Made by a program: the position numbers and the translations under genes. Below are positions 14,630 to 42,792 of a stretch of DNA of 44,192 nt, piece by piece (the first letter of the stretch is position 1; each line of letters opens with the position of its first letter). The DNA is from a virus: the IMG/VR virus record IMGVR_UViG_3300020061_000011, positions 1-44,192 of that record; one strand, written 5' to 3'. Below the pieces are notes generated by a model, which was not told the DNA's origin, made no database searches, and was given only the letters and a program-made list of their open reading frames with translations.

Positions 14630-16668
14630 TAGAGATCGCCCAAATAGAATATATGGACCCGTCAACGCACAACATTGGAATGTTGCGCGTCTGTTCGTCA
14701 CCTGACTTTTTCTCTGGCAACGAGCCGTACCAGCCGATCATCCTTGAAAAGCTGGATTTTGAAGGAACCTTGTTCTCGAAAGGAACGACTCAGGGTGACG
14801 CTGAAATCAGCGTTGGCACCTTTGTTCTGACCAACATCGACGGAGCGCTGGACTACCTGCGCACTTACGGTTTTGATGGCCGGGCTATTAGAATCTACCG
14901 TCCCAAAGATAAAGACGATACGGTCCTCAATGCCGCTAATCTGTATTTCACAGGAACAATCAAGTTCCCTGTGTTCTCATGGGATAAAGTGACATTCAAC
15001 ATTTCTAACAGAATGGAGATTGTCAACGTACCTATGCAGCCCATTGGGTTTTTAGGTACAAACATAGGAACTGGCGGCTTAGGCGGGCTTGACGGGTCTT
15101 CCGGGCTGGCAGGAACTACGAAGCCGCAAGTGTGGGGCAGGGTGTGCTGCGCTGAAGGCGCGCTCATCAATGAGTTTTTCCTGCTGTACGGGTTCAACTT
15201 CGATCATGCTGGGCTGCATAAGCCTGTGTTTAATTTTTATAACGTTTGGGTAAAAGGTATACGCTACTTGCGAGATGCGGATTACCACGATACAACCGCA
15301 TTGGCGAACGCGACCATACTTCCCGGCTTTTTCGGCACATGTCTAGCCATGGGCGTACTGCGTTTAGGTAGCACGCCGGCATCGAACGGGCGCGTAGTCG
15401 CAGACGTGGCCGACATGGACGAGCCGTTCAATACTGCGGGGCAGGTGATAGAACGTATTCTAAAGGCCAATGCTAGCTTTGTTGAAGGCGTCGATTACAA
15501 TTCCAGCGGCCTGCAAACCATGGACGATTTCAATCAATGCCCTGTCGGTTACTACGTTACGGATAACGTAGTTATAGGCGAGGTAGTGAACATGCTTGCG
15601 GATTCTATCGGCGGATGGTTTCTTCCGGACGCGGCAGGCGTTTTTCAGTTCGGCATCGTTGATCTGCCGACGCAGCTTATGCAGGGCGGCAACGTACCAG
15701 TCATGACTTTGACTCGCCGCAACTGGCTAGACTCTATCGAGCGCGTTCCGGTTAATGACCAGAATGAGAACATTCCGGCGTTTTCAGTGGAGTTGCAGCA
15801 TACGCGCAACTGGACTCCGCAAGATAGCGGAAGTCTCGCGGATGCTGTAGGTATCACGGATCGCCTGTTTTTCACTAATCAATATCGTTCCTCGCGAAAG
15901 ACGAATGACAGCATAAAGGAGCTGCATCCGCTCGCTCCTAGCCTGAAGTATACGACACTGCTTAACCGTCAATTGTATTACGCGCTGGTAAACGGGGATT
16001 TCTCTATTCCTGTTGCTACAGCCGGTAACGGCTGGACGGCAACAGGATTGGGGCTGTCTACCACGCAAGGCGCTGGATTTATCGAGGTTACGCCTAGCGG
16101 CGTGGTAGCAAGGATCGAGCAGTATTTTGGGTACAACAGCGACGTGTTCCCCGGCACGATAGAGATAGGCTTTAGCGTAGCGGCCACGTATACTGTGCTC
16201 ATGGAAGTTCGACGAGGACTTGGCGGCGGAACCCTGATTTATAGCGAAACTATCTCAACTTCCTCTGTCGATCGGGACTACATTCGATCATTCGTTTTAC
16301 CGTACGGGCTTGGTAGCGTCACCGGTCAGCTGACAATTCGCTTTAGCTCGGTCAACACGTCTACGCCGTTCAAAATAGGAACGATCTTTCTTCGCACGGT
16401 ACAGCAAGGCAAACCGCCGGATGAAGAAGCGCAGCGTCGTCTTACGAAAGAGTCAGCATTCACCGAACGTTTCACGCTCACTGTCGCAAACCAGTTTGTT
16501 ACCGATTTCGGGTTACAAGTCGGTAAAATTGTAATTCTTCAAGACGATAAACGTTTTGACCTGTTAGTGGGTCGTCCGTACCTTATCATTGGAACGCAGC
16601 TGGACGACGACAATTACGTTACTGAGCTGGACGTATGGGGGCTAGGTACAAATGTCACTAACAGCTAA
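14626..16668 (+). CDS. Minor tail / tail-tip protein
   Basis: A 680-residue protein of beta-rich composition, starting in an ATGA overlap with the tape measure stop. The order tape measure, then this gene, then a 291-residue partner matches the distal-tail and tail-hub module of siphoviruses. Visible features: an N-terminal domain (1-140) resembling distal-tail modules with paired beta strands (AISVGTFVLTNIDGALDYL), a Gly-rich loop GTGGLGGLDGSSGLAG near 150, a central region with YYVTDNVVIGEVVNMLADSIGGWF typical of hub proteins, and a jelly-roll-like segment (about 450-580, STSSVDRDYIRSFVLPYGLG). It ends with a beta-rich YLIIGTQLDDDNYVTELDVWG as hub proteins often do. Exact role (distal tail versus hub) is not decidable by eye. 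Confidence 0.6.
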   Translation: MIEIAQIEYMDPSTHNIGMLRVCSSPDFFSGNEPYQPIILEKLDFEGTLFSKGTTQGDAEISVGTFVLTNIDGALDYLRTYGFDGRAIRIYRPKDKDDTVLNAANLYFTGTIKFPVFSWDKVTFNISNRMEIVNVPMQPIGFLGTNIGTGGLGGLDGSSGLAGTTKPQVWGRVCCAEGALINEFFLLYGFNFDHAGLHKPVFNFYNVWVKGIRYLRDADYHDTTALANATILPGFFGTCLAMGVLRLGSTPASNGRVVADVADMDEPFNTAGQVIERILKANASFVEGVDYNSSGLQTMDDFNQCPVGYYVTDNVVIGEVVNMLADSIGGWFLPDAAGVFQFGIVDLPTQLMQGGNVPVMTLTRRNWLDSIERVPVNDQNENIPAFSVELQHTRNWTPQDSGSLADAVGITDRLFFTNQYRSSRKTNDSIKELHPLAPSLKYTTLLNRQLYYALVNGDFSIPVATAGNGWTATGLGLSTTQGAGFIEVTPSGVVARIEQYFGYNSDVFPGTIEIGFSVAATYTVLMEVRRGLGGGTLIYSETISTSSVDRDYIRSFVLPYGLGSVTGQLTIRFSSVNTSTPFKIGTIFLRTVQQGKPPDEEAQRRLTKESAFTERFTLTVANQFVTDFGLQVGKIVILQDDKRFDLLVGRPYLIIGTQLDDDNYVTELDVWGLGTNVTNS

Positions 16669-19886: not shown

Positions 19887-21197
19887 ATGTCCGTTATCGG
19901 CACCATAAATAGCCGCGTCTACGATACCGTTGATTTCAACGCTGTTGACTATGCGAACCGTATTCAACAGCTGATCGGCGACATCTACGTTCATTTCTTG
20001 CCACGCCGCGCTCTCACTTCTGCCACGTCACTGGCCGTCGCGACTGGCTCCAAAGCCTTCACGATCAACAACAACCTTTCGTCGTCGAATCCTGACTACG
20101 CTGTGGGAGAGTGCGTTTACGCGCGACCGATGATCGGCATGAATGGTGTCGATCGGCGCTATCGCGATACGTGGATGTCCGGCGTTATCTCAGCCATCTC
20201 TGGCACCGTTATCACCGTGAACGTACTGGCAGCGAGGGGGAGCGGAACTTACGCGAGCTGGATGATTGCGCCAATCGGCGACAATATACAGACTTTGGCG
20301 AACCCGCTCGCAGTTACCAACGGTGGCCTAGGCTCTGCGACGTTGGCTACTGGAAAGGCGAATATCGGGGTGGGCGCACCTACTGCGCAGATCAAGCCAA
20401 TTTTTGAGGACTTCCTTGGAACAGTCGTTTTACCGAGCGTGTCATCCGGTCATGGCTATTCCGAAAGTTTCGACATCTACGATCACAACAAAGACAGCGT
20501 GGACTTCGTTGGAAATTTCTCCCCGCACGGCTTGCTTACGGGCGACACGGAACAGTTTAACGTAGACCCAAACGTAACGCAACCAGTGACCGCGAGCGAT
20601 TGGGCCTCTCATCCGGGTATTATCATGCTTGCCGGCGGAGGACCTGGCACGACGGGCGGAGCGATGATTTGCACGAAGAATGCCGGGAGCGGAGGAATTA
20701 TCCAGTTTCCGTACTCTGGCGATCTCTTCGAGGTAATGTTCCGAGTTCCGGACGGATACACAACCCCCATCTGTTCTTTCGGGTTTACGGCAGCAAGCAG
20801 CGGCGGTGACGAAAGCGCTGTCGTGATGAACATCGGCGTCGATACCTTGCCGTATATCAAGACGTGCATGGCAGCGCCGGACATGTCCGCTATGTCCGGT
20901 CTTCCGGGCGGTTTCTCCGTTGTTACCGGAAATACCGGCGGCTCCCCCACGTCCGTGTGTTTCCCCAGCACTTACCGTATATTGTCGGGAATATGGTACC
21001 GTGCGCGGTTTACGTCAACCAGCTGCACTCTGTACATAGGAACGACGCAGGTTGCGCAAATCACCAGCTTGACATTCCCGACATTGGTTCTGGATCACGC
21101 GATGGAATTCACGCTCGCAGCAGCATCGTCGGACCCTAATACATATTCCGGCGTGCTGCTGGACTACTACTATTACCGACATAACACTACGCGCTAG
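19887..21197 (+). CDS. Tail fibre / receptor-binding protein 3
   Basis: A 436-residue paralogue and the last gene of the + strand structural operon. Residues about 45-135 carry the anchor module (TSLAVATGSKAFTINNNLSS, YAVGECVYARPMIG, ISGTVITVNVLAARGSGTYA, SWMIAPIGD). The C-terminal part (about 165-436) is Gly/Ser/Thr-rich and beta-rich, with WYRARFTSTSCTLYIGTTQV aligning to the WYKIRLE strand pair of fibre 1 and ending LLDYYYYRHNTTR, comparable to IDYLYFLREF in fibre 1. The stop TAG (21195-21197) shares the palindrome CTAG with the stop of the convergent SbcC-like gene, so there is no terminator between the two arms. Confidence 0.6.
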   Translation: MSVIGTINSRVYDTVDFNAVDYANRIQQLIGDIYVHFLPRRALTSATSLAVATGSKAFTINNNLSSSNPDYAVGECVYARPMIGMNGVDRRYRDTWMSGVISAISGTVITVNVLAARGSGTYASWMIAPIGDNIQTLANPLAVTNGGLGSATLATGKANIGVGAPTAQIKPIFEDFLGTVVLPSVSSGHGYSESFDIYDHNKDSVDFVGNFSPHGLLTGDTEQFNVDPNVTQPVTASDWASHPGIIMLAGGGPGTTGGAMICTKNAGSGGIIQFPYSGDLFEVMFRVPDGYTTPICSFGFTAASSGGDESAVVMNIGVDTLPYIKTCMAAPDMSAMSGLPGGFSVVTGNTGGSPTSVCFPSTYRILSGIWYRARFTSTSCTLYIGTTQVAQITSLTFPTLVLDHAMEFTLAAASSDPNTYSGVLLDYYYYRHNTTR

Positions 21198-23374
21198 TTT
21201 GTCAGCATAGCTACGTCTATCGTGGTATCCGCCGCGTATTCCTCGCCTTCACGGTGAGTGACCAGCACGATCTGCCGGTCGGTGCCACGAAGCGCCCCAG
21301 CGAGCGCTGCGGCCATGTCGTCCCGCAGCTCGCTCGACGGCTCGTCCAAGACCGCGAACGAAACCCCGGCCGGCAGGAGCGATGCTAGGGCTATGCGGAG
21401 CCCGACGCCGGCAATCGCCTTGAGCCCGCCAGAGAGCGTCACCACGGCGCGCCGGTTGCCGTCCTCGATGTAGTAGAACTCGCCGCCCGGATCACGCTCC
21501 AACGATTCGATGCGCCCTTCCGTCACGCCGGAGACGAACTCGCTGGTAATCGCCATGATCTGCGACCAGAGGTCGTCCATGAAGATCGCGCGGTTATCGC
21601 GCAGATACTTCGTTAGCCCATTGAAACGGTGAACATCCTTCTCATACTCGTCTTTCTTCTCCGCCAGTTCGGTCGCAACTTTAAACTCTTTGCGCAGCTG
21701 CGCTATTTCCCTGTCCAATATCTCGGAAGCTGACGCGCCTTTACGGTACTTTTCCTGCGCTACTTCCGAAGCTTCCTTTTGACTCTTGGCTACGATCTGC
21801 AACATACCGAGATCGACGGCAGGCGTCGCTTTAAGCTTGTCCAAGAATTCATTACACGCTTCGGCCGCTTTCGTTACTAACGCTGCGGTGGCGTCACGAT
21901 CCTTCTTTGTACGCAGAATGTATTCGTTGTTCCGTTCGATGACCTCGAACCGGTCCGACAGCTGCCCTTTCTTAGAATGCAGCGCATTGACATCTTCGCG
22001 CGTAAACTTGCCGTTTATGCTTTTCAGGGCTACAGCTACCGCTGACTGGCGCTCCGCCACTTCGTTGATAATGGAATCAGAGGGGCATTCTTTCTTCAGT
22101 TTCTTGACGGCCGTCTCTGCGGCGCTCAACACGCCTTCCAATTCGCTTAGTCCTATTTCCGACGCATCAACCTCAATCTTTAGCTTATCGTAGCGCGTCT
22201 TCGCCTTAGCGAGTTCCGCTTCATCATACGGCCGCGCGCACTCGCTGCACACAGACGCATCCAGCGCTTTCTTCGCCTTCTTCAGATCGTCCTTGTAGTT
22301 CTCGTACGTGGTGCGCGCAGCAATGGTCGCGTCCGAATGCTTCTTGCATAGCTTCAACGCCTTTTCGAGTTCAGGTGAGAGTTTCTCGAACAATGCCAGC
22401 TGCGGCTTACCCGTGTCTTCCAGCCAACGATTTACGCTTTCAACTATATTTTTATTGTACTCGTCAACTTTAACGCTAATTTCCGCAGCATCCGCCTGTT
22501 TCGTGAGAACGGCGAATTCCGCTTCCAGATCGCCCGGCTCCACGTATTCGCCCAGCGTTTCCAGCTGCTTGTTCAAGAGCGCAACCGTATTGCTGTGCCG
22601 CTCGAACATGCTCTTATGCGCGTCCAAGGCTACCTTGAAATCGCTGGCCTTCTGGTGCGCTTCGCGCCCGTTTTCCAGCGCTTTTTCCGCTTCCTCGGCG
22701 GCCAAGCGTGCAACGGCGCTGTCTTCTTTCAGCGCCGGCAAACCGAGGTTGAGCTGTGATAGCTGCTTGTCGTCGATCTCTTTCTGTACCTCCGGAGGAT
22801 CGCGGAACACAGGGATGTACTGCAACGCTACTTTTGCGCACGCAGCGAAGTTATTCGATACTTCCTGAACCTGATCGATGTAATCCGCCTGCGCGATCTT
22901 CTCGATCATCTGGTTCAACTTCGACGCTCCCAGCGTTAGGAGCGCGGCCGTCTCGGTCTGTTGCGAATATGTCAGCTCGATAAACTGTTTGGCGCTGACG
23001 CCCAGTTTATCCACGATCCACGCATTGACCGACGTATGCCCGGTAGCTATCAGCGGCGGTTCGCTGAAGATCGATTCAAACTGCACGATCTCTGCGGTCT
23101 TCAGCGTGCGCGTGATCTGATACTTCTCGGCGCCGATATCCATTATCAGCGTGACTTTGCAGTCCTTCTCGCCGGTCATCACGATATCGTCGGATGAGTC
23201 GTCCAGCGCGCTAATCCCGAACAGCGCGAAATAGATGCCTTTGAGGATCGTTGTCTTCCCGAACCCGTTTGGCCCCTTGAAAACGGTCAACGTAGGGGCG
23301 AACTCGACGGTCAAATCCCGCCAGCGGCCGAACCGGGCGAGGACAAGGGTTTTCAAGTAGGCGTTATTGCTCAT
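21194..23374 (-). CDS. sbcC: SbcC/Rad50-type recombination ATPase (gp46-like)
   Basis: The ATPase half of a Mre11-Rad50 (SbcD-SbcC; T4 gp47-gp46) end-processing complex. Walker A is GPNGFGKTT (residues 34-42). The arms (about 170-600) are long coiled coil. A zinc-hook CSEC sits at 376-379, the midpoint, as expected for dimerisation. The C-terminal half of the ATPase has the ABC signature TLSGGLKAI (about 645), Walker B FAVLDEPSSE (about 672) and the switch His in VTHREGEE. At 726 residues it is close to short phage and archaeal Rad50 proteins rather than E. coli SbcC (about 1050). Shine-Dalgarno GGAG precedes the ATG. It is the last gene of the - strand operon, 36 bases after SbcD. Confidence 0.92.
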   Translation of the reverse strand: MSNNAYLKTLVLARFGRWRDLTVEFAPTLTVFKGPNGFGKTTILKGIYFALFGISALDDSSDDIVMTGEKDCKVTLIMDIGAEKYQITRTLKTAEIVQFESIFSEPPLIATGHTSVNAWIVDKLGVSAKQFIELTYSQQTETAALLTLGASKLNQMIEKIAQADYIDQVQEVSNNFAACAKVALQYIPVFRDPPEVQKEIDDKQLSQLNLGLPALKEDSAVARLAAEEAEKALENGREAHQKASDFKVALDAHKSMFERHSNTVALLNKQLETLGEYVEPGDLEAEFAVLTKQADAAEISVKVDEYNKNIVESVNRWLEDTGKPQLALFEKLSPELEKALKLCKKHSDATIAARTTYENYKDDLKKAKKALDASVCSECARPYDEAELAKAKTRYDKLKIEVDASEIGLSELEGVLSAAETAVKKLKKECPSDSIINEVAERQSAVAVALKSINGKFTREDVNALHSKKGQLSDRFEVIERNNEYILRTKKDRDATAALVTKAAEACNEFLDKLKATPAVDLGMLQIVAKSQKEASEVAQEKYRKGASASEILDREIAQLRKEFKVATELAEKKDEYEKDVHRFNGLTKYLRDNRAIFMDDLWSQIMAITSEFVSGVTEGRIESLERDPGGEFYYIEDGNRRAVVTLSGGLKAIAGVGLRIALASLLPAGVSFAVLDEPSSELRDDMAAALAGALRGTDRQIVLVTHREGEEYAADTTIDVAMLTN

Positions 23375-23410
23375 AAAAACTCCGTGGTAAAAGGGAAGAA
23401 AAGCCTGTCT

Positions 23411-24535
23411 TTATTCCTTCGCCGCGAGCGCTGTAACTGCCTCATCGTACGCCGGCTTGTGCGGCGTGTTCGCGATCGAATCGCCGATAACTTCCGGCAG
23501 CGTGCGAGGAATGAACTCTACCTCTTCTACCTTGGCTGCGCCGGCTTTGATGACTTCGACGCTGTTCTTGATAAAGAACGTCAAATTCTCGTCAACTTGT
23601 TTCCACAGGTTCGCGATGGCTTTCGCCAGCTCGGCGTGTCGTTTTGCTTCCAGCCGGCCTTTGATCTCGATGAAGGGCGCACCTTGCATTGGTGCCAAAC
23701 CGTCCAGTACGTCTTCGACGCGCAGCTCTTGATACATGTCCGCGACTTGAAGCGTTTCGATCGTCTGTAGCGTGTCCGTTGCCGTATCCAGCACGTAGAC
23801 GAAACGATCCGACAATTCGCCGAACGTGACCGGGAAGACATTCCCCATCACGATAAGGCGATCGTTATGCAGCATGCGCGGCGGATGCTCATGGCCGACG
23901 AAGATGCGCGTGTACACGCTGAGTGCGCGTTCCTGCATCGCTTCCGTGAAATACAGCGACGTGCCGTTCGGATCGACGACGTTGTACGCTTCGCCCGGCA
24001 CGCCGACGTTGCAATGCAGGACGAGGTATATGTTCCGCGCGCCTTTGCCTTTCTCGGCAAACTCGCACGCCATTTCGACGCTTTGCTCGAAGATGCTTTG
24101 CGTCAGGCAATGCGGAGCGAAAACGAGTTCTGACGAACTGTCCGGAGATGCGACCCTGTAATCCGGCTTGGAAGGGTCCGGGCTGACAACGACCGGCAAA
24201 TCCTCTTCGTCAAACAAATGGTGCGAGAACTTGTTCAACAGCTGCAAGCTGCCGATCTTGTCGGTACGATTCACTACATCGTGGTTGCCGGCCAACGCCT
24301 TCCAGCAATGCATCAATACGGTCCAGCCCTGCGCGATCACAGCTTCGTCGTTCGTGTACGTGTCGAACAGATCGCCGCCGCATATGATCTTTTTCGCGCC
24401 GTTGTGTTTTAGCGCTTCTATCACTTCCAACGTGCGCTTGAACACGAACTGCCGGAACGCCATCGATGACCGCACTGTCGCATGCGACAGGCGCGAGATA
24501 CCCAGATGCGGATCGCTAAAGAATCCCAGTTTCAT
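23411..24535 (-). CDS. sbcD: SbcD/Mre11-type nuclease (gp47-like)
   Basis: Metal-dependent phosphoesterase nuclease partner of the SbcC-like ATPase, trimming DNA ends and opening hairpins or protein-blocked ends. Motifs: D8-x-H10 (FSDPHLG), GGDLFDT with D55, GNHD at 83-86, a later His in LVLHCN and the paired His of VGHEHPPRM. These supply all five usual metal-binding positions. The C-terminal 150 residues include the ATPase-binding region. Length 374 is normal. The ATG overlaps the stop of the upstream PD-(D/E)XK nuclease gene as ATGA and has GGGAG upstream, so the two are coupled. Confidence 0.92.
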   Translation of the reverse strand: MKLGFFSDPHLGISRLSHATVRSSMAFRQFVFKRTLEVIEALKHNGAKKIICGGDLFDTYTNDEAVIAQGWTVLMHCWKALAGNHDVVNRTDKIGSLQLLNKFSHHLFDEEDLPVVVSPDPSKPDYRVASPDSSSELVFAPHCLTQSIFEQSVEMACEFAEKGKGARNIYLVLHCNVGVPGEAYNVVDPNGTSLYFTEAMQERALSVYTRIFVGHEHPPRMLHNDRLIVMGNVFPVTFGELSDRFVYVLDTATDTLQTIETLQVADMYQELRVEDVLDGLAPMQGAPFIEIKGRLEAKRHAELAKAIANLWKQVDENLTFFIKNSVEVIKAGAAKVEEVEFIPRTLPEVIGDSIANTPHKPAYDEAVTALAAKE

Positions 24536-25071
24536 TCGACTTCTCCCGATGGTAGGTGTTCGCCACTTTTCTGTATGCCCATCGCCATCAGATGAGGCGA
24601 TATGACCCAGCTTTCCGCGAATCCGCTTAGATTACGCAGGTTAGTATGGTATGCAGGACTGCCATTAAGCGCTACACGTTTCACCGGATAGCAGACGTTA
24701 ATGATCTTGCCGGACCAAATCTGTATTTCACCGGTCAGTACGTCTTTATATGCTACAACAGCGATCGCTCCGCAACGCGCTGCCATTTGGAGCGAAGAGT
24801 TCTGGCTGGACTTCACCAGCGATCGGTAATAGTTCGCAAACGGTTTGCCCGCGTTTGACGCTTTGCATTCGACGTAGAACGAATACGGCCTACCATACAG
24901 GCCGGACTCTACTTGCAGCTTGAAGTCGCTGTCCGCTTTTCGCACCAGATTACCGGCGGACGCCGAGTCTAGTACGCGCTCGAAGCGACAGCGATAGGAC
25001 TTGTAGAGAGGGGCGAATGCCTCCGCCCACTCTCTTTCAAACTCCTTGCCGTGTTGGATGTCAGGCTTCAT
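24532..25071 (-). CDS. PD-(D/E)XK nuclease, Holliday-junction-resolvase-like
   Basis: A 179-residue nuclease-fold protein. The catalytic core is visible as an early Glu (E11 or E13 in KEFEREW), ADSDF with D49, and FYVECKAS with E68 and K70, giving D-(x18)-E-x-K. The following FANYYRSLVKSSQNSSLQMA supplies a Gln/Ser helix, as in archaeal Hjc-type resolvases and small restriction-like nucleases where R/K-x-x-Q follows the core. Its position directly upstream of SbcD and SbcC suggests a recombination or repair role, but RecB-like exonuclease or virus-specific endonuclease functions are also possible. Starts 11 bases inside the preceding gene after AAGGACG. Confidence 0.7.
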   Translation of the reverse strand: MKPDIQHGKEFEREWAEAFAPLYKSYRCRFERVLDSASAGNLVRKADSDFKLQVESGLYGRPYSFYVECKASNAGKPFANYYRSLVKSSQNSSLQMAARCGAIAVVAYKDVLTGEIQIWSGKIINVCYPVKRVALNGSPAYHTNLRNLSGFAESWVISPHLMAMGIQKSGEHLPSGEVE

Positions 25072-25447
25072 CGTCCTTCTCGGCCTTCCTTCTTTCGATA
25101 ATGCTCATCGCATCCTGTGCAACGCGAACCGCTGCGTAAAGCTTATCGTCCTTGATATCCAGAGTATCAGGCAGAACGCGCAAAAGATTTTCCAACGCCG
25201 TCACGCATGGGTTTTCCAGCTCGTCCACTTCCAGCTCGATCGGGACCAGCTTATACCTCTGCATGATGATCTGGATCATGTCGTCCTTCAGACCCAGATC
25301 ATACTTGACGGTAACGCTCGGCCACTCCTGTGGCGAGACCCTGATGGTCAGCGAGACAGGGCGCTTCTTATCGTCGTTCACGCTGATCCCCAGCGCGTTC
25401 AACAACGCCAACTGATACTCGCTGATCTTCATTTCGCGCACAGACAT
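25061..25447 (-). CDS. Unknown 128-residue protein
   Basis: Not recognised. I place the start at ATG 25447, which shares one base with the dUTPase stop (TGATG); the frame continues upstream through the dUTPase gene but that part is Arg/Gly/Ser-rich out-of-frame sequence. The protein begins MSVREMKISEYQLALLNALG, has a beta-rich middle (RPVSLTIRVSPQEWPSVTVKYD), a helical middle (LKDDMIQIIMQRYKLV), an acidic loop, and a charged C-terminal helix (AQDAMSIIERRKAEKDDEA). No motif links it to nuclease or nucleotide enzymes. It sits between dUTPase and a PD-(D/E)XK nuclease, so a replication or recombination accessory role is plausible but untested. Confidence 0.6.
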   Translation of the reverse strand: MSVREMKISEYQLALLNALGISVNDDKKRPVSLTIRVSPQEWPSVTVKYDLGLKDDMIQIIMQRYKLVPIELEVDELENPCVTALENLLRVLPDTLDIKDDKLYAAVRVAQDAMSIIERRKAEKDDEA

Positions 25448-25962
25448 CACAATCTCCCTGTCGAACCGAAGCCTTTCTCGCCGCGATCGGAAATAACCGA
25501 GAACTCCTGAACGGTGCGGAATTCCGGACGCAGGATGCTGACGAAGACCATCTGCGCGATCCGCTCGCCCGGCTGGATATTGATGCTTCCATCCGAATTG
25601 CGGTTCCACAGGTTCACCATGATCTCGCCCTGATAATCCGCATCGATCACGCCGATCGTATTGCCGATAATCAGACCCTTGTTGCCAAGGCTCGACCGGG
25701 GAACGATCAACCCAACAAGGCCGATACCCAGTTCGTTGGCTTCTTCGGCCGTCTCGGCGAAATCCGAACCTTCGCCGAAGACGCTACCGATATGCATGTG
25801 TATGCCGGTATGCACCATGTGCGACGTGCCGGCCGGGATCAGCGCGCCGTCGATCGCTTTCAGGTCAATGGCCGCCGCACCCTTGGACATGTACTTCGGA
25901 AGGTGCGTGTCTTCCAGATCATACATATCCGGATCGTGGTACTTGATTTCGATAAGCAACAT
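25447..25962 (-). CDS. dut: dUTPase (deoxyuridine triphosphatase)
   Basis: Hydrolyses dUTP to dUMP and pyrophosphate, keeping uracil out of DNA and supplying ThyX with dUMP. All five trimeric dUTPase motifs are visible: SKGAAAIDLKA (1), PRSSLGNKGL (2), GVIDADYQGEI (3, with the catalytic Asp and Tyr), PGERIAQMVF (4), and RGEKGFGSTGRL (5, the Gly-rich lid). At 171 residues it is slightly longer than the usual 150, with an extra acidic loop DFAETAEEANELG between motifs 1 and 2. Start ATG follows AGGAGAAAATC. It lies downstream of the TOPRIM gene in the same operon and complements ThyX at 40108-41127. Confidence 0.95.
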   Translation of the reverse strand: MLLIEIKYHDPDMYDLEDTHLPKYMSKGAAAIDLKAIDGALIPAGTSHMVHTGIHMHIGSVFGEGSDFAETAEEANELGIGLVGLIVPRSSLGNKGLIIGNTIGVIDADYQGEIMVNLWNRNSDGSINIQPGERIAQMVFVSILRPEFRTVQEFSVISDRGEKGFGSTGRL

Positions 25963-25971
25963 GATTTTCTC

Positions 25972-26865
25972 CTAGAAGCACAGGTTTTGGACAAATTGGA
26001 TTTTTCGTCTGCCTAGTTCGATTTCTTTTGCTTTCTTGTTCCACGCGTCTTCATTCACGATATACGGGATGATCTCATCGCGCAGTTCGTTCTGGAGCTG
26101 GATCGGATCGACTGCATCCAATTCCCACGATTCTGGTCCATACTTGTTGATGTAGTCACCGACACGGCTGTCCGTCATTTTTGCCGGATTCGGCGGCGGC
26201 TTCAGAATTTCGATCTGATCCATGTTCAGCGCGACGCGCTTGAAAATGATCTCTGCGCCCAGCTCTTCCGAAAACAGGGCGATGCGCTCCTGTAGATCGC
26301 GAGACATGTCTATACCGCTGGGATCGTGATCTCCGAAGTGCAGGATCACGGGCGTCTGCCGATACGCTTCGCAGTACCCCATGATGTGCTTACGCGCGAA
26401 ATCACGTAGTACCGTACTCGACGGGTAGCCGCGCGCCGCCAGCAATGGAACATCGTATTCTCGACAGACCGGGTTCAGCACGCCGAACAGCGCATCCTTC
26501 TCGACGATGACGAACACGCGCGAAGGCTGATCCGTCCAACGATCCTTGTAATACGAGTTTGCTGCTGCTTGCATACAGTCACGCGCATCTGAGTAATGAC
26601 GATTCGTACGAAATGCGCGCACGCGATCCTCGATCGCATCCCAGTCCATCAGCCCGGCAAGACGTGCCTTGTTTGCCACGTTTTTCACGTTGGCGTACGC
26701 CTTATCATCGTTCTGAATGACGCCGCGCGCAACGAGCTGATAATACAGCTGGCGCACAGTGAGTACCAAGTTGGCAGCTTGATACTCTTCGATGATCGTA
26801 TTCATCACGTTGATGAAGGCGATCGTGCGCGGCTTTAACCGCACTGTTTCGTAACGCTGTCTCAT
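25972..26865 (-). CDS. Spo11/topoisomerase VI A-like TOPRIM protein
   Basis: A 297-residue protein with the two catalytic elements of type IIB topoisomerase A subunits. A winged-helix-type segment LTVRQLYYQLVARGVI places Tyr41/Tyr42 in the R-x-[IL]-Y-Y motif where Spo11/TopoVIA carry their DNA-linking tyrosine. The TOPRIM domain follows: FVIVEKDALFGVL (E122) and HFGDHDPSGID (D179, D181), almost identical to the VEKDAVF and D-x-DP-x-G of TopoVIA. ARGYPSSTVLR also matches the family's K-G-Y-P-x-x-x-T-R segment. No B (ATPase) subunit is visible here, so it resembles stand-alone mini-A proteins that I recall from mobile elements. Probable activity: DNA cleavage or strand passage; untested. Upstream spacing 12 bases from the exonuclease gene. 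Confidence 0.75.
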   Translation of the reverse strand: MRQRYETVRLKPRTIAFINVMNTIIEEYQAANLVLTVRQLYYQLVARGVIQNDDKAYANVKNVANKARLAGLMDWDAIEDRVRAFRTNRHYSDARDCMQAAANSYYKDRWTDQPSRVFVIVEKDALFGVLNPVCREYDVPLLAARGYPSSTVLRDFARKHIMGYCEAYRQTPVILHFGDHDPSGIDMSRDLQERIALFSEELGAEIIFKRVALNMDQIEILKPPPNPAKMTDSRVGDYINKYGPESWELDAVDPIQLQNELRDEIIPYIVNEDAWNKKAKEIELGRRKIQFVQNLCF

Positions 26866-26877
26866 GAATACCCCGAA

Positions 26878-27684
26878 TTAGTAGCGCGGCCCGTACATCT
26901 TGATACCGTACGCAGAACGTAACGTATACTCGAAATCCCCGCCGTACTCAAACGTCTTCGCGATCCACCACGCGTATTGCACAGGCACGTAATCGTTCTG
27001 ATTCTCGCCGTCTTTCGGCTTACCGAACAGTTTACCCTTGTGCATGCCAATAGGGCAATACTTCATCACGCGCGGTTCCATGCACCACGTCGCCAATTGC
27101 ATCGGCGTCATTTCCAACACCTTGCAGAAGTGATCGACAAGGTTGAACACCATCATGGCGTCGCCTGCGGCGCTGTGCGCTCCTTCGACAGCCATCCCCA
27201 GCCATTCCGTGATCCCGGTCTTACCCGGCTCAGCCTTCGGCGTAGTCAGCTTGTGCGTCGGAGCCATCCAATAAAGCCGGCGTGCGGCGACCAGCGTGTC
27301 GATGATCGGTAGGCCCACCAGCGGGGATTCGCCCGTGATCTTCCACATGATCTCCAGATCGAACGTGCGCACGTTGTGCCCGGCTACGATGACCTTCGGC
27401 GTGCCGTCGATCATGTAGTTCGCTTCGAGCCATTGGTACAGCTCGCGCAGCACGATCGCGTCGTCGCGGCAACCGTCGATCATTTCCTGACTGATCCCGT
27501 GAATCGCAAATGCCTTGTCCGACACTTCCAAACCGGGATCGCAAATCTCATCGACGATCTTCTCATACCGATAACCGTCGCTATCGCCGGGCGAACGCAG
27601 GATGCCTGCTACCTGCACGACTCGGCAGGTAGCAGGCTTCTCCGACGTGGTTTCTGTATCGTACGCCAGAATACGATCCGTCAT
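26878..27684 (-). CDS. ExoX-like 3'-5' exonuclease (DEDDh) with DUF3820-like tail
   Basis: A DnaQ-family 3'-to-5' exonuclease. Motifs: D9-x-E11 (LAYDTETTS), GHNVRTFD (Exo II Asp) and HSAAGDAM (Exo III, with the DEDDh His). The C-terminus carries MKYCPIGMHKGKLFGKP followed by VQYAWWIAKTF, resembling the small DUF3820 domain that follows the exonuclease domain in exodeoxyribonuclease X. Probably acts on mismatched or recombination-derived single-strand ends. The start overlaps the upstream small gene by four bases (ATGA). At 268 residues it is slightly longer than E. coli ExoX (220). Confidence 0.85.
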   Translation of the reverse strand: MTDRILAYDTETTSEKPATCRVVQVAGILRSPGDSDGYRYEKIVDEICDPGLEVSDKAFAIHGISQEMIDGCRDDAIVLRELYQWLEANYMIDGTPKVIVAGHNVRTFDLEIMWKITGESPLVGLPIIDTLVAARRLYWMAPTHKLTTPKAEPGKTGITEWLGMAVEGAHSAAGDAMMVFNLVDHFCKVLEMTPMQLATWCMEPRVMKYCPIGMHKGKLFGKPKDGENQNDYVPVQYAWWIAKTFEYGGDFEYTLRSAYGIKMYGPRY

Positions 27685-27888: not shown

Positions 27889-30800
27889 CTAGGCCGCTAG
27901 TTTCTCCGTGGTATTGAAAATTTCGGCTAGAGCGGCTTCGACCTTTTCCTTGGACGGACGACGCTTCAGCTCGATCTGATCCCCCCAGTTCTTACCGATT
28001 GACACCGACGTTTCCAGACTGATATTCAGTCCCGGCAATTCCATTTCCATAATGTCCGCAAGTTCCGTAATCAGCGAGTACACCTGACTTACCGGACAAC
28101 TACAGACCTTCTCGTCATAAATAGGTGCGATCAACGTCGCACGATGGCGCTCCATCACCTTGTTCACTGCGATCTTACGGAGCGCGACCTTCAGTACGGA
28201 CGCGGCGCCGCCTTGAATCTTGAAGTTACCCGCTTGCCGTTCGGCACTCTTTGCTATGCCCTTGTTCGTATCCATGATTTTGTACAGGTGCCGGCGATTG
28301 CCGAAGCAATCCGCCACAAAGCCGAATGTCTTGGCTTCGCGTGTCGCTTGCTCTTGGAACTCCAATACCTTGGGATACGCGCTAAAGAACGCGTCGATGA
28401 ACGATTCCGCCATCTGCTTGGGAACGATCAGCTTGCGCGCCAGACCGCCCGGACCGCCGCCGTACGTCACAAGGAAGTTGGTGCGCTTGGCGTAGACTTT
28501 ACGCACCACGTTACCTCGGCGCGTGATATCCGGTTCGTCGCTATCCGACTCGTCTTCTACGATCTGTTCAAACTCTGCGTATTCGACCGGCTTGCGGTCC
28601 TTGTTGCGCACGTTGTAGATCATCACGCCGGTTGTCGTGTGAACGTCGCGGCGCTGGTCGCCCTGATAGCAGGCGCGCAGATTCGGGTCGTTACTCTCGC
28701 CCGCGAGGATAACCAGCTCTTCCTGATTCCAGTCGATCGAAACGATCACTTCCGGCTCGATGTCTGTCTGATCCGCCGACTGTGGGAGATACGTGGATCG
28801 TATGTGTCCTTCGTCCTTCGTCTTCGATACCTGCAAGATGTTGGGACAGGTGCCAGACGGCCGGCGCGTGATAGTTCCGCAGTTACGAATCTGCGGGTGC
28901 ATGCGGCCATCGCTGGGCGACTTCCACAGCGGATACGGGCGGTAGTACAGCTGCCGACGCGTACGCACCCCGCGCATCGTCAGCACAGCGTCCAGCACTT
29001 TGTACTGCCATGTGGACTTATCCAGCTCAGACATCCACGTACGCACCGCGTTCTCGTTCGTCGTCGGCGCCCCTTCCATTTCAAACAGTGACCGCTGATC
29101 CTTGCCGTCCTTGGATATGTTGCGCAGCTGAATCGGCAGACCCATCTTGCCGTAGAACAGCCGCGCCATCTGATCCGGCGAACCTTCGTTCAACTCGTCA
29201 CCGCTCCATAGCGACTTGTCGTGGCCTATGAACGCGCGCACCCAGCTTTCCAAAGAATCCACGTCATCTTGCGTACCGACACGGACCGCGAGATTCAGCA
29301 GATTCAGGAATTCCAGCTGTTCGGGACTCGCGCTCGCCCCCGACTTGGGATCGGCCAACTGCGCTTGAATACCATCGTAATACGTAGCGATCCATTCTTC
29401 TTTCAGCGAACGGATCGACGGCAGGTTCAACTGACGCGCGATGTTGGCAATGGTTTTCTTTTCGAGATCGACCGGCGGCGGCGTCAGCGCGTTGTACTTG
29501 CAATCGATTAGCAGTTTAGCCTTCTTACCGGCTAGAATCGATTCAATCTCGTCTTCCGATTTTTCTTTCTCTTGCAGTTTCCGCTTCTCGAACTCGCTGA
29601 TCTCGGCCCACAGCGTAGTGAACCCATCCATGTTGATATCGCTGCAATGCTCGCTTAGGAGCGTGCGCAGTTCGGATTCCGACTTGTCGTACAGCGCATC
29701 GTCGTCTTCCTTCAACTGCGTCAGACGATCCCAGTCCATCGGAACGCCGCGCAAGAAGCCGTCCAGCATCGCGCGCGTGAAATACGTCTCGTTGTCGTAG
29801 TAGAACTGCCATGTCCCTTCGCATTCCATCTGCACGATATACAGGATCGCCAGATGCGCCGCACAGATTGAGTCGTCGCAACCGTAATCCAACACTTCGT
29901 CGCCGGACACGTCGCGCATGTCTTTGCCGGATTCAACGATGTCTTCGTATTTGAGCTGGCTGTAATTCAGATCAGCCTTGCTCGACAGTTTCAGCGCGTG
30001 TCGTTTGTTCTCATCGACGTAGTGACCCATGATCGATGAATCTAGCATGTGATCGAAACGTTTGTCGAAATTCGTAGCCGATACGGTTTGCTCGAAACTG
30101 TCGTTGTGTGCCAGCAATTCCGTACCGTCCATGGCGTCCAGTATTTCCTTCAAATCTTCCTTCTTACAGTTATGCGTGTCGCGATGCTTGATCGGCATGT
30201 AGAACGCGTACTGGAAGTTGGCGCCGAAACAGAACGACGCGCCGGTCACGATCTGATGCAACGTGTCGATATAGCCGCCGGACTTCTTCGCGCGCTGATA
30301 CGGCTCGTGCTTGACGGAATCGTAGGATTCATAGTCGAACGCGGTGAACCAAGAGTTACGCATCGCTGCGTACAGCGGGTCCATCTTCGTCTTCGCCAGC
30401 TGCTTACCGTCCAACAGCCAGCGCTTCACGCAATGCTTGCGGAACCCTTCAAGGAACTCCGTCAGCCCGTACGGCTCCAACACGTCGCGTAGGCGCTCGA
30501 TCGTGGGGATGCGCTTTTCCCACTTCGGCCGGACCACCTTCGATCCGTAAGTAGATTCGCACCATTCCGGGTGTAGCTTCGCCAGCTTGTAGCAGAGAGA
30601 CATTTCGCTGCGTTGCATGTACAGCTTGTTGAGTATCTTGCAATCGGCGGCCGACTCTTCCAGCTCCGCATAGTTGTCATGCTTCACGCATTCTTCGATC
30701 TGCGCGATACCTTCCATGCCGTACTTCTCGACCAGCTGCTTCCATGTCTTCTCGCCGAAGCCGGCGACGCCGGGAATCTTGTCGGACGGATCGCCGACGA

Positions 30801-31368
30801 CGGCTTTGTACATGACGACAGGATTGTACGGCTTGAGCGCCATTCCCTTGAACGTCGTCTTGAACGCCTTGTCGATGATGAAACCGACTTCGTTCTTGCC
30901 GTCCACGAGTTGCAGCAAATCGTTATCGACGGTGTAGACCATCTTCGATCCGCGCATACGCTGCACCAGATACGCGATAGTGTCATCAGCTTCCGCGTAC
31001 TGCGTCTTGACGACCATGCAGCCTAGGCCAAACAACAGCTTGCGAACGGCCTCGAACAGCTCATCCTTCTGAGCCTGCACGATCTCATCGTCTTCGTCCT
31101 GAGACTTGCCGGCCTTGTATTTCTCCAAGTATGCGCGGCGACGCGAGTTACCGCTACCGCCTTCGAGAACCGCTATCACGTCGATTGGAGCTGTGTTTTC
31201 CAAGATCGGCGCGAGATAGTAATTGATGAAGTTGTTCAGGCCATGCACGGCCTTCGGTTTCTTCTTTCCGTCAGCGCCCATCACAAAGTCAACTGGCTCG
31301 CCGCTGTAGTACGAATGCAGCATCAGCCCGCGTAGATCAAGGATGACGCGATGTCGTGGGGCCATCAT
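27889..31368 (-). CDS. polA: Family A DNA polymerase with 5'-3' and 3'-5' exonuclease domains
   Basis: Replicative DNA polymerase, 1,159 residues with a full three-domain Pol I layout. The N-terminal 5' nuclease (1-310) has D11, YAEADDT (D128/D129), VDNDLL (D148/D150) and the helix-3-turn-helix GDPSDKIPG (192-200). The proofreading domain has D345-x-E347 (AFDYES), HNDSF and the Exo III-type YGCDDSIC. Palm: motif A DWNQEE (D879), motif B K961-R-T-N-F965, YGG, and motif C YDE (D1085, E1086). Compared with E. coli Pol I, motif A has Glu instead of Ile after Gln, motif C has Tyr instead of His, and an acidic insertion (DESDSDEPD, 939-947) separates A and B. Overlaps its upstream neighbour by four bases. 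Confidence 0.95.
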   Translation of the reverse strand: MMAPRHRVILDLRGLMLHSYYSGEPVDFVMGADGKKKPKAVHGLNNFINYYLAPILENTAPIDVIAVLEGGSGNSRRRAYLEKYKAGKSQDEDDEIVQAQKDELFEAVRKLLFGLGCMVVKTQYAEADDTIAYLVQRMRGSKMVYTVDNDLLQLVDGKNEVGFIIDKAFKTTFKGMALKPYNPVVMYKAVVGDPSDKIPGVAGFGEKTWKQLVEKYGMEGIAQIEECVKHDNYAELEESAADCKILNKLYMQRSEMSLCYKLAKLHPEWCESTYGSKVVRPKWEKRIPTIERLRDVLEPYGLTEFLEGFRKHCVKRWLLDGKQLAKTKMDPLYAAMRNSWFTAFDYESYDSVKHEPYQRAKKSGGYIDTLHQIVTGASFCFGANFQYAFYMPIKHRDTHNCKKEDLKEILDAMDGTELLAHNDSFEQTVSATNFDKRFDHMLDSSIMGHYVDENKRHALKLSSKADLNYSQLKYEDIVESGKDMRDVSGDEVLDYGCDDSICAAHLAILYIVQMECEGTWQFYYDNETYFTRAMLDGFLRGVPMDWDRLTQLKEDDDALYDKSESELRTLLSEHCSDINMDGFTTLWAEISEFEKRKLQEKEKSEDEIESILAGKKAKLLIDCKYNALTPPPVDLEKKTIANIARQLNLPSIRSLKEEWIATYYDGIQAQLADPKSGASASPEQLEFLNLLNLAVRVGTQDDVDSLESWVRAFIGHDKSLWSGDELNEGSPDQMARLFYGKMGLPIQLRNISKDGKDQRSLFEMEGAPTTNENAVRTWMSELDKSTWQYKVLDAVLTMRGVRTRRQLYYRPYPLWKSPSDGRMHPQIRNCGTITRRPSGTCPNILQVSKTKDEGHIRSTYLPQSADQTDIEPEVIVSIDWNQEELVILAGESNDPNLRACYQGDQRRDVHTTTGVMIYNVRNKDRKPVEYAEFEQIVEDESDSDEPDITRRGNVVRKVYAKRTNFLVTYGGGPGGLARKLIVPKQMAESFIDAFFSAYPKVLEFQEQATREAKTFGFVADCFGNRRHLYKIMDTNKGIAKSAERQAGNFKIQGGAASVLKVALRKIAVNKVMERHRATLIAPIYDEKVCSCPVSQVYSLITELADIMEMELPGLNISLETSVSIGKNWGDQIELKRRPSKEKVEAALAEIFNTTEKLAA

Positions 31369-31797: not shown

Positions 31798-31872
31798 TGG
31801 CGCTGCGTGAGAGGATCGAACTCTCTTTATCAGGTTGAAAACCTGATGTCCTAACCGGTAGACGAACGCAGC
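31798..31872 (-). tRNA. tRNA-Glu (anticodon TTC)
   Basis: Seventy-five bases on the - strand that fold as a full cloverleaf. The acceptor strands GCTGCGT and ACGCAGC pair perfectly. The D stem GTCT/GGAC has one G-T pair. The anticodon stem TCAGG/CCTGA encloses the loop TTTTCAA, so bases 34-36 are TTC (Glu). A four-base variable region TAAA, as in E. coli tRNA-Glu, is followed by the T arm GAGAG-TTCGATC-CTCTC. Discriminator G and an encoded CCA end the gene. It reads GAA/GAG codons. It lies in a replication operon between two protein genes, so it must be processed out of mRNA. No integrase is near, so I do not read it as an attachment site. Confidence 0.93.
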
Positions 31873-39923: not shown

Positions 39924-40111
39924 ACAGGTTCCTTTGCGATCACGAACACGACTCGCTTCTGACCGAGTTCCGGGCGTACGTTTTCTAGATCGTCAATCGC
40001 CTCGATCTTGAATAGACGGTTGAAATACGGGTGATAGACGTACATGTCTTCTCCGACACGTTCGTCGGGAAGTTCGTCAAGCAGCCGCTTGATCTCGTGA
40101 ACGCGCATCAT
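39920..40111 (-). CDS. Small unknown protein (63 aa)
   Basis: Not recognised. Starts at ATG 40111 or 40108 in an ATGATGA overlap with the ThyX stop; the frame upstream of this inside thyX is non-coding in character. Sequence: HEIKRLLDELPDERVGEDMY, YHPYFNRLFKIEAIDDL, LGQKRVVFVIAKEPV, predicted helix then beta. It resembles small phage proteins of mixed alpha/beta fold with no known role. Overlaps the HTH gene by four bases, hence coupled with it. Confidence 0.55.
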   Translation of the reverse strand: MMRVHEIKRLLDELPDERVGEDMYVYHPYFNRLFKIEAIDDLENVRPELGQKRVVFVIAKEPV

Positions 40112-41127
40112 CCTCTCTCGATATAGCTCGGCTCTTTGTTGAGCGATTCCCACATGACCGGGCACTTGATCGCCAGCTGTGTATTGATCTGACTGCCAAG
40201 CTGTTGCGCTTCCTTCTGCGCGTGGCCGTCCATACGCAGGTTGCAGACCCGCTTCCATGCGTCGATGGTGCCGGTCCAAATCCAGTTTGTGATAGCCGAC
40301 TGCGGCAGCACCATGCGTGCCAGCTCCGGCGCGCAGCCTTGCTCGATCATCACATTGTACAGCGCTGCCGGCTTGATGTAGTGGTTATTCGCGGCTTCCA
40401 GTATATCCGCAGTCAGCTCGGCCGGGGAATCTTTACTGCCCTGCTTGATCGATTTATCCGGGCGAGCACGCCACACGATCGGCACGAAAAACTGCGGCGG
40501 ATCGTCGATGTAGCGTCTACTCTCTTCGTTCCAGCACAGATGAATCTGATGCTTCACCATCTGTCGCGCCATGAAAATCGATGCGCTGACGCGGAACGAT
40601 GCGGACGCCAACTTCTCCATGCCGCGCGCGTCGTGTGCTGCTACCGACCGCAAACTTTTCTTAAGGTCAACCTCGCGTATGCCGAATGAAACCGGCTTGC
40701 GGAAAAGAAGCGGCGCGGACATGCGATACCGTTCGTTCTTGTGATACCAGTCGCGGATGTCTTCGGCGACGTGTACCGGTAACGCCCACAGGTTTTCGTA
40801 GAACGCCCACATGGAACCGGATACGAAAACGCCGGACGTGCTGCGTTCCCACGTAAAGCCGGCGAGATTCGCGCGGTCAAAGAAAGCCAGCCAACACAGC
40901 GGCGTCATGTAACCGTTGCTGAGGTAGAAGATATCTCGCGCATGCCCGTACGGACTCCAATGCCCGTGAGTCATCAGATGTTTCAGCAGCTTCCCGTTTT
41001 CCCCGTCGTTATACTGCGCCGCCATCTTCGCGAGAGACACGCGCGCAGCGTCGCAGATACCATAATCAGAATTCAGCGGGCGGATCATTTCCGCCTTGAA
41101 ACAATCTACCACCACGTTATTTCTCAC
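40108..41127 (-). CDS. thyX: Flavin-dependent thymidylate synthase ThyX (divergent)
   Basis: Makes dTMP from dUMP with methylene-tetrahydrofolate and NADPH using FAD. The family signature is recognisable at residues 188-206: RQMVKHQ then LCWNEESRRY, aligning to RQWVRHR-x7/8-S-x-RY of ThyX, but the invariant R-H-R reads K-H-Q. Other family features are HLMTHGHWSPYGHARDIF (50-67, ThyX HxSPFEH-like) and SAITNWIWTGTIDAWKRVCN followed by LRMDGHAQKEAQQ (C-terminal helices). The start is GTG 41127 with GAGGGAA upstream, eleven bases inside the upstream two-TM gene. At 339 residues it is longer than typical bacterial ThyX (220-250) because of inserted segments. Confidence 0.9.
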   Translation of the reverse strand: MRNNVVVDCFKAEMIRPLNSDYGICDAARVSLAKMAAQYNDGENGKLLKHLMTHGHWSPYGHARDIFYLSNGYMTPLCWLAFFDRANLAGFTWERSTSGVFVSGSMWAFYENLWALPVHVAEDIRDWYHKNERYRMSAPLLFRKPVSFGIREVDLKKSLRSVAAHDARGMEKLASASFRVSASIFMARQMVKHQIHLCWNEESRRYIDDPPQFFVPIVWRARPDKSIKQGSKDSPAELTADILEAANNHYIKPAALYNVMIEQGCAPELARMVLPQSAITNWIWTGTIDAWKRVCNLRMDGHAQKEAQQLGSQINTQLAIKCPVMWESLNKEPSYIERG

Positions 41128-41811: not shown

Positions 41812-42278
41812 CACTTCACCCCTATGCGGTTGCTTCCGATTTCAACGATGACTCCGCCCGTATCCGGATCGACATAGACGTAGCCGGCTTCGACGTTTTT
41901 CTCGATCACGTTGCGCAGCCGCGTGTAGCCGGTGTTGCTGCGCGGTACGAAGTAGACGGTCTTTCCGTCGCTGCCGCTGGCAGCGTCGGCGACCGACGCA
42001 GACTTCATGTCCGGCGAGAAATATTCCGGACCTTTGCGCACCGTCTCGGCGTAGCGCTCTGCCGCTGCCGGCGTGACTGCGGACTGCGCTTTCAGCGTGC
42101 GCAATTCTTCGCGCACGATGTTGTAATCGTACGCCATAGCAACGAACGCTATCGTCAGCACAGCATACCCGACTATGAAGCGAATCCACTGCGAGCTGAT
42201 CCAGTACCTCTTTTTCGGAGAGAACGGCGGCGGCATCTTTGAAACCGGAGGAAGCATTCCAGACTCAGGTTTGCGCAT
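41811..42278 (-). CDS. Single-pass membrane protein, unknown
   Basis: A 155-residue protein: 31 polar N-terminal residues rich in Pro/Lys, one TM helix (FIVGYAVLTIAFVAMAY, 34-50), then about 105 residues that would lie in the periplasm: helical (REELRTLKAQSAVTPAAAER) then beta-rich (TVYFVPRSNTGYTRL, GYVYVDPDTGGVIVEIG). N-in orientation fits the positive-inside rule. It overlaps the SleB-type gene by 14 bases. The layout is like an inner-membrane spanin but has no long coiled coil and no lipobox-bearing partner could be found, so I call it only a membrane protein. Confidence 0.55.
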   Translation of the reverse strand: MRKPESGMLPPVSKMPPPFSPKKRYWISSQWIRFIVGYAVLTIAFVAMAYDYNIVREELRTLKAQSAVTPAAAERYAETVRKGPEYFSPDMKSASVADAASGSDGKTVYFVPRSNTGYTRLRNVIEKNVEAGYVYVDPDTGGVIVEIGSNRIGVK

Positions 42279-42792
42279 AAAATACCAAGCCTCCGATTTT
42301 TTGTATAAGAGTGTGTCGCGACTGCCAATCCGTTTTCAGCGACGTAGAATGAAAAAAGATCATCCGACGATAATCATCTGACAGCGTGCCGTAGTAGCTG
42401 GTCGCAACGTGTGCCGCTTCCAGCGCATCGTCCCATGCTTCCACGTCAGCTGAGTTGTACAGCGTAATCACGGTTCGATAGCCGACGAACTGTTTTGGCT
42501 GCTTGACTACGCCGCACAGATCGGTCGGCCATTTGCCGGACAGAGATCGGTTAACGACGGTCGCTGCGACGGCAAGCTGCACCTGATAGCTTTCGCCGCG
42601 CGCTTCGCCGTATACGACGCGGCGCACGCATTCGACTTCATCCTCCGTAAACACCGGCATTATTTCAGCCGGAGGAATAGAGAGCGAGATCGGCGCAGCA
42701 CTGACCGTCTTCTGATCCACTCTCTGCACTACCGCCATCCCGAACATGATGGATAACAGAAACAGCAGCCCGAATAGATCGGTCTTGTTCAT
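42265..42792 (-). CDS. SleB-type cell wall hydrolase with N-terminal membrane anchor (endolysin candidate)
   Basis: Peptidoglycan hydrolase of the SleB (Hydrolase_2) family. The catalytic Glu is E63 in VYGEARGESYQVQLAVA, then NRSLSGKWPTDLC, KQFVGYR, and the C-terminal FFHSTS and IGGLVFYA motifs complete the domain. The protein is 175 residues with a hydrophobic N-terminal segment (LFGLLFLLSIMFGMAVV, 7-23) that could be a signal anchor or signal-arrest-release element, as in exported endolysins. This makes it the only clear lysis gene in the window. It is buried in an early/nucleotide operon rather than after the fibre genes. ATGA overlap with upstream gene. Confidence 0.88.
   Translation of the reverse strand: MNKTDLFGLLFLLSIMFGMAVVQRVDQKTVSAAPISLSIPPAEIMPVFTEDEVECVRRVVYGEARGESYQVQLAVAATVVNRSLSGKWPTDLCGVVKQPKQFVGYRTVITLYNSADVEAWDDALEAAHVATSYYGTLSDDYRRMIFFHSTSLKTDWQSRHTLIQKIGGLVFYAQT

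Follow-up and report, generated by a model that had tools for sequence, protein, structure and literature searches.

A Mini-A protein related to topoisomerase VI-A and Spo11 in a phage replication operon that also encodes SbcD and SbcC

Gene Content of the Operon

The window analyzed here, i.e., the whole stretch of DNA, is an IMG/VR virus record of 44,192 bases whose first genes are head genes, with the major head protein at 7-1176. Neither a terminase nor a portal was seen among the window genes scanned. Given this and the start within head genes, the record most likely represents part of a genome. The operon under study lies on the minus strand and contains, in order of transcription, the following genes:

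27889-31368, minus strand: Pol I-type DNA polymerase (PolA) with a 5'-3' exonuclease domain, at the head of the replication operon (Pfam DNA_pol_A 3.1e-54, 5_3_exonuc_N 2.7e-13)
26878-27684, minus strand: DnaQ-like 3'-5' exonuclease (Pfam RNase_T 1.2e-9; PHROG 192 3.6e-31)
25972-26865, minus strand: Mini-A protein of 297 aa, with a winged-helix/5Y-CAP domain (residues ~1-90) and a Toprim domain (~95-270)
25447-25962, minus strand: dUTPase, directly downstream of Mini-A (Pfam dUTPase 1.4e-26)
25061-25510, minus strand: small ORF of 149 aa if started at 25510 (start uncertain), no family match
24532-25071, minus strand: PD-(D/E)XK or Holliday-junction-resolvase-like nuclease (PHROG 37986 'Holliday junction resolvase' 5e-9)
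23411-24535, minus strand: SbcD/Mre11-like nuclease (phosphoesterase; PHROG 100, SbcD-like, 2.6e-15; Pfam Metallophos 1.2e-6)
21194-23374, minus strand: SbcC/Rad50-like ATPase of 726 aa, the last gene of the operon (PHROG 28217, DNA repair exonuclease, 4.5e-60; PHROG 77, SbcC-like, 4.9e-32; Pfam AAA_23 1.7e-13)

DnaQ and Mini-A are separated by 12 bp and Mini-A and dUTPase by 9 bp, the nuclease and SbcD genes overlap by 4 bp, and the SbcC stop overlaps the stop of a convergent tail gene by 4 bp. The initial annotation had described an operon continuing from a Spo11-like protein with dUTPase, a resolvase-like nuclease, SbcD and SbcC, and the Pfam and PHROG matches agree with each of these genes; left out were the upstream PolA and DnaQ and the small ORF at ~25061-25510. 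The latter overlaps the dUTPase end and matched nothing in Pfam, in PHROGs or among the loci compared. Homologues of the resolvase-like nuclease, annotated as Holliday junction resolvase, occupy the same place in the phages PMBT3, Lana and SHOU24. The identity of the SbcCD pair is indicated by a calcineurin-like nuclease and an AAA/SMC-type ATPase encoded in adjacent genes.

Other features of the window on the minus strand include a ThyX gene (40108-41127) with a ~155-residue N-terminal extension ahead of the Thy1 domain (157-324), a cell-wall hydrolase (42265-42792; Hydrolase_2, 3.7e-16) within the replication gene cluster and a tRNA-Glu (ttc) at 31798-31872 amid the polymerase operon genes.

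Identity and Distribution of the Mini-A Protein

The 297-aa ORF and the motif residues originally claimed for it were confirmed from the translation, which reads R38-Q-L-Y41-Y42, V-E122-K-D-A-L-F and G-D179-H-D181-P-S-G. Profile search matched residues 1-292 to PHROG 6247 'DNA topoisomerase' with an E value of 6.5e-104, well above any chance level. A protein of similar size from the Pseudomonas phage NP1 shares 50.2% identity with it over 98% of the length and is drawn as Mini-A in Fig. 4 of a 2021 review (PMC7614492); the resemblance to mini-A proteins suggested in the initial annotation is thus actual membership. Reviews (PMC8185306) name Takahashi et al. 2020 as the source of the family description. 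Judged by its sequence, the window protein is a member of the Mini-A family and a full-length relative of topoisomerase VI-A (topo VI-A) and Spo11. The Mini-A kind has already been described, and the window protein is an ordinary family member in a less usual setting. The NP1 and window proteins are alike in full-length homology, length, motifs, their encoding by tailed phages and in that no B subunit was found, whereas the NP1 gene has DNA ligase, ThyX and a RecA-like gene as neighbours and the window copy lies in a PolA/DnaQ/SbcCD operon.

Mini-A relatives were found by tblastn in 74 phage records, a scan of viral contigs gave at least 586 confirmed relatives, and Mini-A is encoded in 88 stretches of bacterial and archaeal genomes. 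A plasmid protein annotated 'Topo Mini-A' shows 28% identity to the window protein. Pfam and NCBIfam gave no name to the latter; weak Pfam matches to TOP6A-Spo11_Toprim, TP6A_N and DUF2399 were obtained in some relatives only. Sequence search of the solved structures, with the single Mini-A or an 18-sequence profile, returned no topo VI-A match, as the divergence is too great for this method. In the literature covered, no enzymatic activity is reported for any Mini-A.

Several unusual copies were also observed. Mini-A is split across two annotated ORFs in PDS1 (L032:8917-9803) and in Roseobacter phage RDJL Phi 1 (14424-15265), owing to a frameshift or a sequencing error. Four thaumarchaeal assemblies (L189, L191, L192 and L194) carry a bacterial-phage-like Mini-A in addition to a topo VI-A of their own; proviruses or viral contigs that contaminate the assemblies are possible sources. 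The Mini-A of another viral record (L019:6231-8552, IMGVR_UViG_3300037483_001670) contains an in-frame intein-like insert (Hint_2 1.1e-6, LAGLIDADG_3 2e-6), located exactly between a Trp residue and the catalytic E-K motif (AELW / C...HN / CEKDALAG).

Predicted Catalytic Residues and Domain Structure

In an alignment of divergent Mini-A members, Y42, E122, K123, D179, D181, P182 and G184 were invariant (103/103), and Y41 was kept in 99 of the 103 sequences and substituted in four. The conservation of Y41/Y42, on which the proposed kinship depended, therefore holds. For HMM-HMM comparison, a Mini-A profile was aligned with 27 archaeal topo VI-A sequences and with 40 shuffled or reversed decoys. 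The alignment with topo VI-A was end to end and scored 41-44, against 31 for the best decoy, with a single-comparison E of 9e-5 to 3e-5; the hhalign probability was modest (59-75%), and weight is therefore placed on the motif order and the decoys. Y41-Y42 fell on the Y-Y of the topo VI-A motif T-[IL]-R-D-[LV]-Y-Y, with Y42 corresponding to the second tyrosine, while E122-K aligned with E-K and D179-x-D181 with D-x-D, so that all motifs were collinear. Y42 is accordingly the predicted nucleophile of Mini-A.

The AlphaFold2 model of the window protein, built with 18 sequences, had a pLDDT of 87.5 with an uncertain hinge at residues 82-87. Whole-model Foldseek matches were weak (E 1.1e-3 at best), probably as a result of this hinge. 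The Toprim half of the model best matched topo VI-A 1d3y (Z 11.7, 151 residues, 4.8 A), followed by JetD 7til (Z 10.7) and Spo11 8uru (Z 9.2); on this half by itself, topo VI-A and JetD cannot be told apart (Z within 1). A separate model of the N-terminal 92 residues had a pLDDT of 89.4. With VIA-align, the best match of this domain was again topo VI-A 1d3y (Z 8.1, 79 residues, 5.0 A), model residues 11-92 lying on chain residues 72-153 at a constant offset of 61; Foldseek with the same domain model ranked topo VI-A third only (E 0.9). By this offset, Y42 would lie at 1d3y chain residue 103, the catalytic tyrosine of M. jannaschii. Both Mini-A domains thus match topo VI-A by predicted structure, including the expected match of the N-terminal half to the winged-helix catalytic domain. 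Together, the HMM-HMM alignment and the structure matches bear out the Spo11/topo VI-A kinship put forward in the initial annotation.

Comparison With Known Systems

The archaeal topo VI A subunit resembles the window protein in its winged helix followed by Toprim and in the collinear R-x-[LV]-Y-Y, E-K and D-x-D motifs; however, Mini-A is shorter, shares only ~15% identity with it and has no B subunit encoded nearby. Likeness to Spo11 extends to the Toprim fold (Z 9.2 against 8uru for that half), the set of catalytic residues and an ATPase-free action that is possible in principle. Mini-A is nevertheless outside the eukaryotic Spo11 family by sequence and has no meiotic partners. Topoisomerase VIII is likewise of type IIB and occurs on plasmids and in integrated elements, but has a B-type ATPase part, usually fused to the A region. 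The window Mini-A, having A-type domains only, is ruled out as a topoisomerase VIII.

The topo VI holoenzyme is an A2B2 tetramer that includes an ATPase B subunit. The lack of a B subunit noted earlier was also seen more widely: no GHKL B subunit or HATPase_c domain was found in the 44-kb window or in 46 further Mini-A records. As the window is a likely genome fragment, a B-like partner may be encoded elsewhere in that genome. There is also no fused GHKL/B domain, the 297 aa being covered by the two A-type domains. Mouse SPO11 dimers cleave DNA without partners (PMC11922746); stand-alone cleavage by Mini-A is plausible on this account, and by analogy a B-less Mini-A can plausibly be active.

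Association of Mini-A With SbcCD Across Phages

Linkage to sbcCD in related phages had been anticipated and was largely not found. SbcC lay within ~6 kb of Mini-A in 3 of the 171 dereplicated groups examined (the window, L056 and L104), in three different arrangements. This is a raw count, from which no depletion or enrichment of SbcCD relative to phages without Mini-A is claimed; neighbours were counted from mechanical ORFs on the same strand, so that split genes would be missed. Among 35 Mini-A records, a full SbcC and SbcD was present in one, Achromobacter phage JWF, ~20 kb from Mini-A, and 3 of 50 further Mini-A viral records contained both genes. In the first of these (G025/L056), the order is PolA-SbcD-ThyX-SbcC-Mini-A and SbcC adjoins Mini-A; in the second (G055/L104), SbcD-SbcC lie upstream and SbcC ends ~3.3 kb ahead of Mini-A; in the third (G030/L064), SbcCD is ~20 kb away. 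The SbcCD of L104 was detected by a PHROG profile, not by the profile from the window SbcCD. As L056 and L104 have Mini-A close to SbcCD, the idea of a module is, for this minority of phages, only weakened.

Across the 171 groups, Mini-A neighbours were mostly DNA-metabolism genes of various kinds, and none of them was a constant companion. The commonest neighbour families occurred in at most 12 of the groups, and some of these were apparently out-of-frame ORFs overlapping Mini-A itself. A tree built from 104 Mini-A proteins did not resolve the copies of the window and L056 as sisters. The closeness of Mini-A to SbcCD therefore seems to be a gene order that arises now and then, not a machinery devoted to cutting and processing, and a break-and-process module is not supported as the family-wide mode of Mini-A.

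The gene run of L056 (L056:1358-10891) includes a PolA that matches the window PolA at 7e-96, so that L056 is a distant relative, with its Mini-A placed elsewhere in the operon. Short RecN/SbcC-like AAA_23 ATPases of 460-480 aa were seen 3.5-4.6 kb upstream of Mini-A in L031 (5465-6904), L032 (4658-6100) and L103 (3577-4965); SbcD was not found with them, and two of the three are in Bacteroidota phages.

Backbone Relatives Without Mini-A

Relatives of the replication backbone were identified in the phages Lana, PMBT3, UAntarctica and SHOU24, with PolA matches of E 1e-162 to 1e-137. Homologues of the primase, helicase, SbcD and SbcC are also common to the window and these phages, with E values against the Lana/SHOU24 group of 1e-41 to 8e-32 for SbcD and 5e-45 to 8e-41 for SbcC. 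A peptide-pattern search of the viral-contig collection found no close relatives of the window SbcC or PolA; the Lana/SHOU24 phages are therefore the nearest operon kin found.

The order primase, helicase, PolA, resolvase, SbcD, SbcC was kept in all four phages tested, with DnaQ matched in three. The operons differ from that of the window in having no Mini-A, which was absent anywhere in the four. At the slot of Mini-A and dUTPase, i.e., the interval between DnaQ and the resolvase, PMBT3 and UAntarctica carry a dNMP kinase; the gene at this slot in Lana is unnamed but equal to it in size. Since these four relatives keep the gene order without it, Mini-A was most likely inserted into a pre-existing replication/repair operon.

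Proposed Function of Mini-A

Mini-A is probably a stand-alone tyrosine DNA-cleaving enzyme of phage DNA metabolism that was inserted into an inherited replication operon. By homology, it would act as a homodimer with active sites shared across protomers, Y42 of one protomer attacking DNA held by the putative Mg2+-binding residues E122, D179 and D181 of the other. Such Mg2+-dependent transesterification would leave a reversible 5'-phosphotyrosyl break. Mini-A would have its role in phage replication and recombination, where it may cut and probably reseal phage DNA, either relieving topological stress or providing recombinogenic ends. SbcCD would serve as the general end-processing nuclease of the inherited replication module. 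Since bacterial SbcCD cleaves DNA next to protein-blocked ends and strips off covalently attached topoisomerases (PMC6265447), it could process Mini-A adducts. Any such removal would reflect what SbcCD does in general and would not point to a dedicated module.

The initial annotation had gone further and envisaged a self-contained Spo11/Mre11-Rad50 module. Spelled out, Mini-A would introduce programmed, covalent double-strand breaks into the DNA of phage or host, SbcCD would remove Mini-A and start resection, and the resolvase would finish recombination, by analogy with meiotic Spo11 and Mre11-Rad50. The co-operonic Mini-A and SbcCD of the window, the arrangements in L056 and L104 and the known action of bacterial SbcCD on blocked ends and covalent topoisomerases (PMC6265447) are in agreement with this scheme, but the rarity and variety of the linkage (three groups, three arrangements), the distance of ~20 kb in JWF, the four backbone relatives that have SbcCD without Mini-A and the unresolved relationship of the window and L056 copies all speak against it, and we regard it as unlikely. 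Confined to the window, L056 and possibly L104, the pairing of covalent breaks by Mini-A with its removal and the onset of resection by the phage SbcCD is likewise held to be improbable.

Were Mini-A a hydrolytic Toprim nuclease like JetD/MksG, it would make breaks without a covalent tyrosine intermediate. JetD and MksG (Wadjet nuclease) share the Toprim fold geometry with Mini-A (Z 10.7-10.8), their chains score level with topo VI-A on the Toprim half, and some family members gave the weak DUF2399 matches. However, the N-terminal domain best matches topo VI-A, PADLOC gave no match for the window Mini-A, and the CAP-domain catalytic tyrosine is missing from JetD and MksG (PMC10586767, PMC10123090). 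It is this tyrosine of the N-terminal domain, invariant in Mini-A as Y42 at the topo VI-A position, that sets Mini-A apart from them, and a hydrolytic mode is considered distinctly unlikely. Loss of catalysis, leaving a regulatory or structural DNA-binding protein, appears very improbable: the plain annotation 'DNA binding protein' of relatives in some phage records and the lack of a reported activity in the literature covered would fit it, but the catalytic residues are invariant across very divergent sequences. Inteins usually sit at essential catalytic sites, and the intein-like insert of L019 lies exactly at the E-K motif. The reading of Mini-A as a stand-alone tyrosine enzyme is therefore preferred.

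Mini-A is widespread in phages, and few known relatives of Spo11 and topo VI-A are smaller. Together with the co-operonic SbcCD, it offers a handy natural pair with which to learn if a Top6A homologue acting alone cuts DNA permanently or seals its breaks again, and if removal of such a protein by Mre11-Rad50 existed outside meiosis. If true, the minority pairing of Mini-A and SbcCD would be a parallel, in viruses of prokaryotes, of the meiotic Spo11/Mre11-Rad50 step.
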